The notes beneath the pieces were generated by a model. The model was not told where the DNA came from. It searched no databases and saw only the letters and a list, made by a program, of their open reading frames with translations. A DNA stretch of 34,149 nucleotides from an uncultured Sphingomonas sp. (GTDB taxonomy: Bacteria; Pseudomonadota; Alphaproteobacteria; Sphingomonadales; Sphingomonadaceae), in NCBI GenBank assembly GCA_913777325.1, contig CAJYSA010000114.1, forward strand, positions 1-34,149, written 5' to 3'. Both the position numbers and the translations under genes were made by a program. Positions 12,930-15,922 of the stretch are shown one piece after another; position 1 is the stretch's first letter; each line of letters begins with the position of its first letter.

Positions 12930-13046
12930 GCATGTACCTTCATGTTGGCCGATCGCTGACGTGCGCCCCATGCGCAACGCCCCTCCGGCTGTCGTTCCAA
13001 CGGCAAAGGGCGGCAAGGGTGATTCCCTTCCGCCCGACGCCGTCGC

Positions 13047-13075
13047 GCTATGGCCCAATACCGCAGCTCACGCAA
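13047..13075 (-). promoter_or_regulatory. possible rpsF promoter
   Basis: Read on the minus strand, TTGCGT (13075-13070) is followed after 17 nt by CATAGC (13052-13047), about 118 nt before the rpsF start. The -35 is good and the -10 weak, as often in alphaproteobacteria. The GAATGTTG repeats begin immediately upstream. Confidence 0.35.
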
Positions 13076-13076
13076 C

Positions 13077-13137
13077 CGAATGTTGAGGCGTGAATGTTGC
13101 GAATGTTGAGACGATAACGCGTTGGATTCAACATTCG
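13077..13137. repeat. clustered GAATGTTG repeats with a 10-bp inverted pair between rpsF and fabD
   Basis: Three direct copies of GAATGTTG (13078-13085, 13092-13099, 13101-13108) and one inverted copy CAACATTC (13129-13136) lie in 60 nt. Two direct copies extend to CGAATGTTGA (13077-13086 and 13100-13109), and the inverted copy extends to TCAACATTCG (13128-13137). This gives a perfect 10-bp inverted repeat with an 18-nt spacer. They sit in the divergent promoter region, a likely place for a regulator binding site. Confidence 0.7.
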
Positions 13138-13241
13138 TGGGCCTGCCCGATCTTCTACCACATTACCCCGCGAATCGCCAGCGCGGTTGACCGGACGCGG
13201 GCGTGCGGCCTAGCAGCGCGGCCTTCAAACGGAGGTCCATC

Positions 13242-14201
13242 ATGCGCGCGTTCATCTTTCCGGGTCAGGGCAGCCAGGCGGTCGGCATGGGTGCGGCGCT
13301 GGCCGATGCCTCGCCAATAGCGCGCGAGGTGTTCGGCGAGGTGGACGAGGCGCTGGGGCAGAACCTGCGTCGCCTGATGGCGGAGGGGCCGGCGGACGAA
13401 CTGACGCTGACCGAGAATGCGCAGCCCGCGATCATGGCCAACGCGATCGCGACGCTGAGCGTCTTGACGCGCGAGGGCAATGTGCGGCTGTCGGAAAAGG
13501 CCGATTACGTCGCCGGGCACTCGCTGGGCGAATATAGCGCCTTGTGCGCGGCGGAGGCGTTGGACCTCGGGACGACCGCACGGCTGCTGAAGACGCGTGG
13601 GCGCGCGATGCAGGCGGCGGTGCCGGTCGGCGAAGGCGCGATGGCCGCGCTGCTGGGGGCCGACGTCGAGAAGGCGCAGACGATCGCCGGCGCGGCGGTC
13701 GATGCGATCCTGGCGGAGGGCGGCGAGGAACTGGTCTGCACCGTCGCCAACGACAACGACCCGTCGCAGGTGGTGATCTCCGGCCACCGTATCGCGGTGG
13801 AGCGCGCGGTGGCGTTGGCCAAGGAGCTGGGCGCCAAGCGCGCGGTGTTGCTGCCGGTGTCGGCGCCGTTCCACTGCGCGCTGATGGAGGATGCGGCGCG
13901 GGTGATGGAGGGCGCGCTGGCCGATGCCGATTTGCGCGCGCCGCTGGTGCCGGTGTTCGCGAACGTCGATGCGGCGGCGGTGGCCGATCCGGGCGCGATC
14001 CGCCGCCTGCTGGTCGAGCAGGTGACGGGGCGCGTGCGGTGGCGCGAGTCGGTGCTGGCGATGGTCGACGCGGGGGTGACGGAGTTCGTCGAATTCGGCG
14101 GCAAGGTGCTGTCGCCGATGGTCAAGCGCATCGCGCCGGATGTCGAGGCGGTGAGCGTCGTTTCGATGGACGATATCGAGGCGGTGCTGAAGAAGATGTG
14201 A
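13242..14201 (+). CDS. fabD: malonyl-CoA:ACP transacylase
   Basis: 319 residues from the ATG at 13242 with GGAGG 6 nt upstream. The enzyme moves malonyl from CoA to acyl carrier protein, the entry step of type II fatty-acid synthesis. Motifs: N-terminal FPGQGSQAVGMG, active-site GHSLGEY (Ser94), the catalytic His in SAPFHCALM (His211), and PVFANVDAAAV near the end. It heads fabD-(insert)-fabG-acpP-fabF-mltG. In related genomes fabG usually follows directly; here a GxxExxY gene with flanking inverted repeats intervenes. Confidence 0.97.
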   Translation: MRAFIFPGQGSQAVGMGAALADASPIAREVFGEVDEALGQNLRRLMAEGPADELTLTENAQPAIMANAIATLSVLTREGNVRLSEKADYVAGHSLGEYSALCAAEALDLGTTARLLKTRGRAMQAAVPVGEGAMAALLGADVEKAQTIAGAAVDAILAEGGEELVCTVANDNDPSQVVISGHRIAVERAVALAKELGAKRAVLLPVSAPFHCALMEDAARVMEGALADADLRAPLVPVFANVDAAAVADPGAIRRLLVEQVTGRVRWRESVLAMVDAGVTEFVEFGGKVLSPMVKRIAPDVEAVSVVSMDDIEAVLKKM

Positions 14202-14202
14202 T

Positions 14203-14230
14203 GTTCACGCGGAGGCGCGGAGGCGCGGAG
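14203..14230 (+). repeat. left arm of the 28-bp inverted repeat
   Basis: Built from three near-tandem GCGGAG(G)C steps. It contains the GGAG (14227-14230) that serves as Shine-Dalgarno for the GxxExxY gene. Confidence 0.9.
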
Positions 14231-14235
14231 AAGAA

Positions 14236-14661
14236 GTGAGAGACATCGATGCCATCAGCGGTGACGTTCTCGATCTCGCGTTGCGCCTTCATCGCGAGCT
14301 CGGACCGGGGCTGCTGGAGAGCGTGTACGAGACCGTCATGGCCGGGCGTCTGAGCGCGATGGGCTATTCCGTCTCCCGACAGCATCCGGTGGACATTCAC
14401 TTCGACGGGCAGATCTTTCCGGCGGCGTTTCGCATCGATCTGCTGATCGACGGTCGGCTTGTTGTCGAGATAAAATCGGTCGAGAAGTTGCTGGCGGTGC
14501 ACGGCAAGCAACTGCTGACGTATCTGAGGCTTATCGAGCAGCCTGTCGGGCTGCTCATCAATTTCGGAGGTGAGACCTTGAAGGAAGGAGTGCGACGTGT
14601 CGTCAATAACCATCGCCCCTCCGCGTCTCCGCGCCTCCGCGTGAACCAATCAACGGAGTAA
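14236..14661 (+). CDS. GxxExxY family protein (PD-(D/E)XK nuclease-like)
   Basis: 141 residues from a GTG at 14236, the only in-frame start before the conserved core, with GGAG upstream. The name-giving motif is seen as GLLESVY within LRLHRELGPGLLESVYETVM (about residues 22-37). A nuclease-like core follows: Asp in RIDLLIDG, then Glu-x-Lys in LVVEIKSVEKL, and a Gln/Tyr helix KQLLTYLRL, matching the PD-(D/E)XK plan with the QxxxY element of RecB-like nucleases. The family's function is not established. The C-terminal 15 or so residues are encoded by the right inverted repeat and by host sequence beyond it. The stop TAA lies 3 nt before fabG, overlapping the fabG ribosome-binding region. Confidence 0.85.
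   Translation: MRDIDAISGDVLDLALRLHRELGPGLLESVYETVMAGRLSAMGYSVSRQHPVDIHFDGQIFPAAFRIDLLIDGRLVVEIKSVEKLLAVHGKQLLTYLRLIEQPVGLLINFGGETLKEGVRRVVNNHRPSASPRLRVNQSTE
14619..14646 (-). repeat. right arm of the 28-bp inverted repeat
   Basis: The reverse complement matches the left arm at 27 of 28 positions. It lies inside the 3' end of the GxxExxY reading frame, encoding roughly SPRLRVN. Confidence 0.9.
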
Positions 14662-14664
14662 CCA

Positions 14665-15420
14665 ATGTTCGACCTTACAGGCATGACCGCGCTGGTGACG
14701 GGCGCTTCGGGGGGGATCGGGTCGGCGATCGCGACGGGGTTGGCGGCGCAGGGCGCGCGGCTGGCGGTGTCGGGGTCGAATGTCGCCAAGCTGGAGGCGT
14801 TCCTGGCGACGCTGCCGGGGGATGGGCCGGGCGAGGGGCATGTCGCGGTGCCGTGCGACCTGTCGGATTCGGCGGCGGTCGATGCGCTGGTGCCGCAGGC
14901 GGTGGAGAAACTGGGCGGGCGGATCGACATCCTGGTCAACAATGCCGGGGTCACGCGCGACAATCTGGCGATGCGCATGAAGGACGACGAATGGGATCAG
15001 GTGATCCGCGTCAACCTGGAGGCCGCGTTCCGGCTGATCCGCGCCGCCGCGAAGCCGATGATGAAGCAGCGCTTCGGACGCGTGATCTCGATCACCTCGG
15101 TGGTGGGACAGACCGGCAATCCGGGTCAGGCGAATTATGCCGCGTCGAAGGCCGGGTTGGTCGGCATGTCCAAGGCGCTGGCGCAGGAACTGGCCAGCCG
15201 CAACATCACCGTCAATTGCGTCGCGCCGGGCTTCATCCGCTCGGCGATGACCGACGGGCTGCCGGAGGCGCAGAAGAGCGCACTGACCGCGCGCATCCCG
15301 GCGGGCGACCTGGGCAGCGGAGATGACATCGCCGCGGCGGTCGTCTACCTGGCCTCGAAGGAGGCGGGTTACGTCACCGGGCAGACCATCCACGTCAACG
15401 GGGGTATGGCGATGGTCTGA
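14665..15420 (+). CDS. fabG: 3-oxoacyl-ACP reductase
   Basis: A 251-residue short-chain dehydrogenase that reduces 3-oxoacyl-ACP with NADPH in fatty-acid elongation. The cofactor motif TGASGGIG lies near residues 12-19 and NNAG near 92-95. The catalytic triad is Ser145 (in ITSVVG), Tyr158 and Lys162 (in NYAASKAG). The C-terminal YVTGQTIHVNGGMAMV ending is typical of FabG. A GGAG precedes the ATG. The GxxExxY frame ends just upstream, so translation of the two may be coupled. Confidence 0.96.
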   Translation: MFDLTGMTALVTGASGGIGSAIATGLAAQGARLAVSGSNVAKLEAFLATLPGDGPGEGHVAVPCDLSDSAAVDALVPQAVEKLGGRIDILVNNAGVTRDNLAMRMKDDEWDQVIRVNLEAAFRLIRAAAKPMMKQRFGRVISITSVVGQTGNPGQANYAASKAGLVGMSKALAQELASRNITVNCVAPGFIRSAMTDGLPEAQKSALTARIPAGDLGSGDDIAAAVVYLASKEAGYVTGQTIHVNGGMAMV

Positions 15421-15424
15421 GCCA

Positions 15425-15446
15425 TGCGTGTGTCGAGACACACGCA
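15425..15446. terminator. 10-bp hairpin between fabG and acpP
   Basis: TGCGTGTGTC (15425-15434) and GACACACGCA (15437-15446) are perfectly complementary around GA; in RNA the innermost pair would open to a 4-nt loop. No T-run follows, so it is more likely an attenuator, mRNA 3'-end stabiliser or processing site than a full terminator. It could help acpP be expressed separately from fabG. Confidence 0.5.
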
Positions 15447-15451
15447 CGGAC

Positions 15452-15480
15452 TTGTCAGGCGGGCCGACCGGCTCTACCTG
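15452..15480 (+). promoter_or_regulatory. possible acpP promoter
   Basis: TTGTCA (15452-15457), then a 17-nt spacer, then TACCTG (15475-15480), about 45 nt before the acpP start. The -35 is strong and the -10 weak. acpP is normally expressed far above its neighbours, so an internal promoter is expected here. Confidence 0.4.
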
Positions 15481-15525
15481 CGTTCAGGAATTTGAAATCT
15501 ACCCCCAATCGAAAGAGGGAAAGTT

Positions 15526-15762
15526 ATGAGCGAGACCGCCGACCGCGTGAAGAAGATCGTCGTCGAGCATCTCGGCGTCGAGGCCGACAAGGTGACTGAG
15601 GACGCCAGCTTCATCGACGATCTGGGCGCGGACAGCCTCGACATCGTCGAGCTGGTCATGGCGTTCGAGGAAGAGTTCGGGGTCGAGATCCCGGACGACG
15701 CCGCCGAGAAGATCTCGACCGTCAAGGACGCGATCACCTATATCGACGAGCACAAGGGCTGA
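15526..15762 (+). CDS. acpP: acyl carrier protein
   Basis: A 78-residue acidic protein carrying growing acyl chains on a 4'-phosphopantetheine arm. The attachment site is the DSL motif in [12 protein letters not shown] (Ser37). Sequence and length are standard ([27 protein letters not shown] at the start, [11 protein letters not shown] at the end). A strong GAGGGAAAG ribosome-binding site precedes the ATG. It sits between fabG and fabF in the usual order. Confidence 0.98.
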
Positions 15763-15781
15763 GCCCGAAGTGCGGGGCGCA

Positions 15782-15798
15782 GGCCGGATCATCCGGCC
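15782..15798. repeat. 17-nt palindrome between acpP and fabF
   Basis: GGCCGGAT and ATCCGGCC flank a single C (15790). It is 20 nt after the acpP stop. With no T-run it is probably an mRNA-processing or attenuation hairpin; a role as protein-binding site is possible. Confidence 0.45.
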
Positions 15799-15922
15799 GG
15801 CACCCGGCAGTCGAATGATTTGAGCGGCTTCCCGTCCTTCGCTAGAGGATGGGGAGCCGTTCTGTTTTGCAAGACCGTCGCCTGCGTAGGAGAGGCGCAA
15901 GGGGCGGCAAGAAGGGAAGCCT

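Follow-up and report, generated by a model that had tools for sequence, protein, structure and literature searches.

The GxxExxY unit in the window

The window, the whole stretch of 34,149 nucleotides analysed here, comes from an uncultured Sphingomonas sp. and harbors a GxxExxY gene between two ORFs that we take to be fabD and fabG (Table 1), names given by sequence recognition without a family search. In brief, two inverted arms of 28 nt, 96% complementary and 388 nt apart in an inverted-repeat search, bound a unit in which the GxxExxY gene is the sole gene. The arm pair is the longest inverted repeat listed for positions 13000-15800. The near-perfect terminal repeats (27 of 28 bases) of the preliminary description were confirmed, with a local score of 25 for the pair and a maximum of 13 in 1000 dinucleotide shuffles. 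A general arm pattern matched four times in the entire window, always within the two arms, with 0.05 matches expected. The shuffles and pattern counts rule out a chance or low-complexity repeat as the origin of the arms.

Table 1. Features of the GxxExxY unit and its neighbours (positions in the window)
Feature	Position	Strand	Remarks
fabD, upstream neighbour	13242..14201	+	Intact reading frame; presumed name, from recognition of the sequence
Left arm	14203..14230	+	GTTCA, then three units (CGCGGAG) spaced by 8 bp
GxxExxY gene, 141 aa, predicted PD-(D/E)XK fold	14236..14661	+	Profile matches, invariant residues, structure model
Right arm, inverted copy of the left arm (27/28)	14619..14646	-	Inside the 3' end of the GxxExxY gene
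fabG, downstream neighbour	14665..15420	+	Intact reading frame; presumed name, from recognition of the sequence

Two points of that description need revision. The arm consists of arrayed 8-bp units instead of one 28-bp sequence, and the repeats frame the gene on the left side only, where the arm lies outside it; the right arm is part of the coding sequence and encodes the variable C-terminal tail of the protein. The ORF has a GTG start and a stop codon at 14659-14661.

The GxxExxY protein

The window protein matches TIGR04256 with 119.3 bits (curated cut-off 35) and PF13366, PDDEXK_3, with an E-value of 2.4e-34, likewise above the curated cut-off. These matches supply a name only; together with the intact frames on either side they bear out that a GxxExxY gene is placed between fabD and fabG. 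PF13366 was the only Pfam family matching up to E 0.001, a HUH/Y1 transposase domain was absent at that threshold, and the TIGR04256-type and Pfam profile searches gave no match to transposase families. Residues E28, D68, E78 and K80 are among those invariant in 67 GxxExxY sequences; D68, E78 and K80 supply the D and E-x-K of a PD-(D/E)XK core, in addition to E28. A structure model (pLDDT 90.9) gave PD-(D/E)XK fold matches, and the protein is thus predicted by fold to be a small PD-(D/E)XK nuclease. The dN/dS values of ten GxxExxY pairs are 0.05-0.15, indicating that the protein is kept under purifying selection.

A search for solved structures related by sequence to the window protein gave none up to E 10. 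Likeness to PADLOC models is weak, with RT-associated PDDEXK (E 0.0078) as the best match and Cas4 at E 0.013. The best PHROGs match had an E-value of only 0.45 and phage records gave no match at E 1e-5. Five relatives were found in a collection of viral contigs, and 8 of 72,556 plasmid records carry a GxxExxY gene. In a gammaproteobacterial MAG (L194:1501-2091) the gene is broken by roughly 150-200 bp (a very rough estimate) containing a stop.

Arms at GxxExxY loci in other genomes

We scored GxxExxY loci for an inverted pair of score at least 14 close to the gene ends. A wide set was made of the best 80 of at least 582 relatives, from many phyla, plus the five viral contigs; seven of these 85 loci were left out for short flanks. 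Such a pair was found at 65 of the remaining 78 loci and in 0 of 70 control windows shifted by 700 bp, while a clear inverted repeat was missing at 13 of these loci from the best 80 relatives and the viral contigs. Three of the 65 are viral contigs (L215-L217) with an AT-rich repeat of a different kind. In the first family set, which leaves out L054 at a contig edge, 28 of 30 loci had the pair and L049 and L066 did not. Arms paired across different loci reach the same score in 10 of 60 cases (first set) and 71 of 500 (wide set), a weak control because the loci have arms in common. The link between the arm and GxxExxY genes elsewhere, which the preliminary description had proposed as a check on mobility, is present at most loci of both sets.

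The arms of 91 of 95 non-redundant loci contain the loose unit CRCNNMGN, a pattern with some positions fixed by construction and with CRCRRAGR as its commonest letters; the other four have the unit in the opposite orientation. The spacing from one unit to the next is 8 bp in 244 of 349 cases.

An acidobacterial genome contains a palindrome family, from which 20 copies were picked (L277-L296), with cores of 79-81 bp, outward-facing arms and opposite unit orientation. Left and right arm variants are shuffled among these palindromes.

Gene-less elements in the source genome

The source genome (3.6 Mb in 123 contigs) has a single GxxExxY gene; elements whose arms are clearly paired but which lack the gene number at least eight, on contigs C14, C18, C37, C70, C75 (two), C100 and C105. 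Partial units with repeats and without the gene, which had been proposed as something to look for, thus occur in the same genome. Two further elements (C54 and C58) have a partial partner arm, and solo arms were found too. The paired elements are about 125 to 290 bp long, with inward-facing arms and varied loops. Several of them are nested: a second pair, built of CGCGAAG or CGCAGAG units, surrounds the CGCGGAG pair or lies within it. Strong hairpins are predicted for the two elements tested (z -5.7 and -10.1), and an Rfam search of 11 sources gave no match.

At the sites orthologous to C37 and C105, nested elements are common to several relatives and missing in others. The inner arms of C105 are of the GGAG type in G000 (the source genome), G267, G289 and G282; those of G306 and G253 are of the AGAG type. 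The type holds for the arms on either side and for almost all their units. Compared with G000, G267 and G306, the loop is inverted in G253 and G289; that of G282 is unrelated. The C105 element is absent from the gene-less genome G284, where an apparent arm relic remains, so this absence is read as a loss. No fresh gain was proved, and at the sites compared no target-site duplication was noticed; divergence between the sequences is too great to rule out short ones.

Terminal inverted repeats and gene-less copies are also features of MITEs, and would suit a MITE family of ordinary IS origin whose transposase has been lost. We consider this origin very improbable. The unit lacks a transposase gene, unlike insertion sequences and MITEs, its only gene is a nuclease-family gene under purifying selection, and no transposase family was matched. 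Moreover, the arms occur at the loci of most relatives and are arrays with varying unit number. The nuclease- or repair-driven route suggested in the preliminary description fits better than a transposase.

A different palindromic repeat, of the CATTGCGAGCGTAGCGAAGCAATCCAG type, lies inside arm elements or replaces them at L004, L020 and L021 of the source genome and at L267. Intergenic gaps seem to be common to several palindrome families.

Arm number and presence of the gene

Arms of three patterns were counted in 61 congeners, assigned to the genus Sphingomonas from their names, and genomes with at least 10 arms were called arm-rich. The gene is present in 22 of the 25 arm-rich congeners. 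The exceptions are G267 (79% complete, no joined fab flanks), G278 (a unit remnant) and G294, which has 12 arms and no GxxExxY gene. Conversely, 22 of 26 gene-bearing congeners reach 10 arms. The four below 10 arms of the three patterns are G252, with arms of another type, G304, with an odd N-terminus, and G258 and G269, where the gene is located away from the fab site. Arm numbers in congeners go with the gene, with medians of 50.5 and 1 and p values that ignore kinship. A fab-flank tree of 58 genomes yields 7-8 independent pairs, in about 5 of which more arms accompany the gene, with 0-0.2 pairs showing the opposite; with so few pairs, the sign test gives a borderline result (median p 0.06).

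Of 249 family genomes, 21 contain 5 or more arms of a single pattern, and 16 of these have the gene, vs 53 of 249 overall (Fisher 2e-8, kinship ignored). In the remaining five (G155, G069, G094, G196 and G209) no GxxExxY gene was found; it may have been lost recently or missed, or the arms may have another driver. Outside the sphingomonads, we counted at least 10 matches to the general pattern in 29 of 35 genomes picked by title, all of them gene-bearing, with a chance expectation estimated at about 2 per 4 Mb; matches in a backward control likewise increase in the richest genomes, owing to the periodicity of the arms.

Since arms bracket the gene, recur without it and abound in gene-bearing relatives, the GxxExxY enzyme, as far as can be read from sequences, probably maintains or disseminates a short DNA repeat family of its own.

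The fabD-fabG site

Among the 61 congeners, the fabD-fabG gap holds a full unit in 24, a probable remnant in 5 (G259, G266, G268, G274 and G278) and other sequence in 10; it is plain in 19, and joined flanks are missing in 3. The empty sites that the preliminary description had proposed to seek in relatives thus exist, as a plain gap of 9-25 bp in 19 of the 58 congeners with both flanks. The gap of G280, G290, G294 and G295 holds other palindromes.

In G307, G284 and G257 the gap holds a stretch of 1.2-1.3 kb. That of G307 (L100) is 1.3 kb long, stands in place of the unit and contains a reverse-strand ORF of 355 aa, which by eye, without a family search, resembles an acyltransferase.

In the wider sets, where 118 loci were picked by similarity to the window protein or its family, 27 lie between fabD and fabG. 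The other 91 do not have fab flanks on both sides, a few of them lying near contig ends, and many units therefore live elsewhere. With full units in 24 of 61 congeners and 27 of 118 wider loci, a recent insertion into the fab operon is unsupported; the window copy, described earlier as inserted in the fab operon, occupies an old site. From its distribution we regard the fabD-fabG unit as an old resident that apparently underwent repeated loss and type switches. What stands of the proposed minimal mobile unit is the link between arm and gene, the gene-less pairs and the empty sites; it does not look like a fresh insertion, and a minimal transposon describes it less well. One wider-set locus, L135, is titled Arthrobacter sp. 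TPD3018, with fabD 84% and fabG 90% identical to those of the window, and is probably misnamed.

Arms at the fab site are far more alike within a unit (similarity 0.94) than between units of different species (0.66). None of 20000 permutations equalled the within-unit pairing, and the own partner is the best or tied match in 20 of 24 units. Trees were made for 23 of the 24 fab units, leaving out G276, and 22 units bore an A/G label; on these the arm class changes once on the protein tree and eight times on the flank tree. Arms that simply follow species ancestry were rejected for the fab site, as the flank tree does not group the RAAG units in a single clade (p-AU 6e-55).

In pairs of close relatives fabG has a pS of 0.19-0.33, yet that of the unit is 0.59-0.72; the fabG comparisons are ungapped and usable for low-pN pairs only. 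The arm class differs in the close pairs G279/G276, G253/G306 and G264/G256, and G305/G281 have GGAG and AGAG arms, respectively. Plain vertical descent is seen in G265/G271 (0.20 and 0.17). Genome G291 retains a GAAG-type arm outside its AGAG-type unit. Judged by these comparisons, units of different type have evidently replaced one another at fabD-fabG between conserved flanks.

A fixed site where types switch repeatedly, the existence of alleles that have the unit and others that do not, and a predicted PD-(D/E)XK fold would all be expected of a homing-type allele. Here the nuclease would cut fabD-fabG sites that are unoccupied or of another type, the unit would be copied in, and the dispersed arms would be a by-product of off-target repair. 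Many units are located elsewhere, however, and the feature they have in common is the arm and not the host flank, which makes this account unlikely. Homing endonuclease genes resemble the unit in having alleles with and without it at one site; unlike them, the unit is intergenic, and neither an intron nor an intein was noticed.

Type turnover at one site bears also on a purely host-related function, where non-mobile structural or regulatory arms (mRNA stabilisers, terminators or a defence sensor) would be selected together with the nuclease. Intergenic sites, the strong predicted hairpins and the weak likeness to defence models agree with such a pairing. We find it quite improbable in view of the turnover, the nesting and the loop inversion, and of the Rfam searches, without a match in 11 sources.

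Arm type and protein subtype

Paralogs within one genome tend to have their own arms. Genome G108 encodes eight paralogs with matched arm pairs; these differ between paralogs, and only the two proteins closest to each other (85%) have a type in common. The four paralogs of G104 have differing, internally matched arms, and in G243 clear arms are absent at L312 and L313.

Protein and arm similarity were compared for 95 loci, the number left after 34 of 136 loci had been dropped and near-duplicates had been removed from the 102 kept. They are correlated (Mantel rho 0.33, 0 of 2000 permutations), also below 60% protein identity (rho 0.20, 0 of 1000). Common descent of linked DNA contributes part of this correlation.

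The commonest dispersed arm type counted is that of the gene's own arms in 14 of 23 genomes (p 0.002, kinship ignored). This was first seen for the 18 of 24 units with clean arms and holds with 23 of 24; arms mixing GAAG and AAAG units were left out of the type counts. Seven of the eight RAAG-type units are in genomes whose commonest counted arm is of another type, a mismatch that recent unit replacement, loose specificity or the uncounted GAAG/AAAG mixtures would explain.

The arms might also be the repeats of another mobile system, such as a RAYT or an IS acting in trans, with the GxxExxY gene as bracketed cargo. The dispersed elements do lie in the same gaps as other palindromic repeats. 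We nevertheless hold this to be doubtful, as the genes of this one family are bracketed by similar 8-bp units across many phyla, arm numbers go with the gene, and arm type follows protein subtype even among the paralogs of one genome.

Relation to REP/RAYT and other systems

We compared the GxxExxY units with the traits published for REP/RAYT/REPIN systems (REPtrons), drawing on parts of PMC2817692, PMC8049555 and PMC8266576. In the parts of PMC2817692 used, RAYT genes are always flanked by two inverted REPs with which they coevolve; they stay put while the REPs change, and the number of REPs is conditional on the RAYT. The corresponding parts of PMC8049555 describe RAYTs as single-copy, vertically inherited and not observed on plasmids.

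Similarly, the GxxExxY gene lies between two inverted repeats in the window and at 65 of 78 loci, three of these with repeats of another kind. Many GxxExxY-type arms are dispersed, their number is associated with the gene (22 of 25 arm-rich congeners), protein and arms covary, and a fixed position is combined with changing, still paired repeats. The picture for copy number and plasmids is mixed: the gene occurs once in the source genome and is rare on plasmids (8 of 72,556 records), but several family genomes have 2-8 matches. Unlike the vertically inherited RAYTs, GxxExxY units are replaced between lineages. The enzyme is of the PD-(D/E)XK type (PF13366) and not a HUH/Y1 transposase. The arms, unlike REPs, are arrays of 8-bp units with pairs tens to several hundred bases apart, and the GTAG palindromes of REPs have no counterpart in the window arms, the only arms read for this, where neither arm contains GTAG or CTAC. 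Given the different enzyme fold and repeat design, the GxxExxY system would work like REP/RAYT without being a member of it. By this analogy, a resident nuclease gene with a dispersed repeat population seems a better picture than a minimal transposon.

Arms at the gene ends, pairing, number association, type matching, type switching, nesting and loop inversion were all observed; recognition and cutting of arms by the GxxExxY protein, with movement and repair copying, we infer. The reading that we favour, and consider fairly likely, is a nuclease-repeat system that resembles REP/RAYT, is unrelated to it, and spreads arm-bounded DNA by arm cutting and repair copying. We suggest that the protein would recognise arms whose 8-bp units match its own subtype, probably in the form of a hairpin or cruciform made by two paired arms, and cut them. 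Repair would then copy arm-bounded DNA into other arm sites, often in intergenic gaps. This copying could spread and homogenise the gene-less copies, and one unit type could replace another at fabD-fabG. Such a nuclease-repair route would explain why arms are homogenised and elements nested, why loops are inverted and types replaced at a fixed site, and why a transposase is lacking.

More broadly, we speculate that REP/RAYT-like domesticated mobility was invented at least twice, and that GxxExxY proteins of many phyla are site-readers, each with a private code of 8-bp units, that propagate arm-bounded DNA by nuclease-triggered repair, nesting it in older copies and overwriting them; in our judgement this could equally turn out right or wrong. 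If the favoured reading is true, it is a second, unrelated case of the lifestyle of one gene plus a repeat population, so far tied to RAYTs. The lifestyle is already known from REP/RAYT; new would be the machinery, with its enzyme fold and repeat design. The reading offers a named, widespread family of unknown function a role that can be tested, and ties a repeat motif of many phyla to one gene family. If the protein reads the arm code, paralogs with different 8-bp codes form a natural series for nuclease-DNA recognition.

Cas4-like and Hjc nucleases were also compared. Cas4 proteins are defined by an iron-sulphur site with cysteines; the window protein contains no cysteine and so lacks the site.

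A literature search, with preprints and most subscription journals outside its scope, found no published description of the nuclease-repeat system; in its texts the name GxxExxY occurs in two papers and PF13366 in one, and six arm 15-mers had no occurrence in a literature text search. A search for six arm 12-14-mers gave two papers, on plant allergen genes and human UPF1, which we take as chance.
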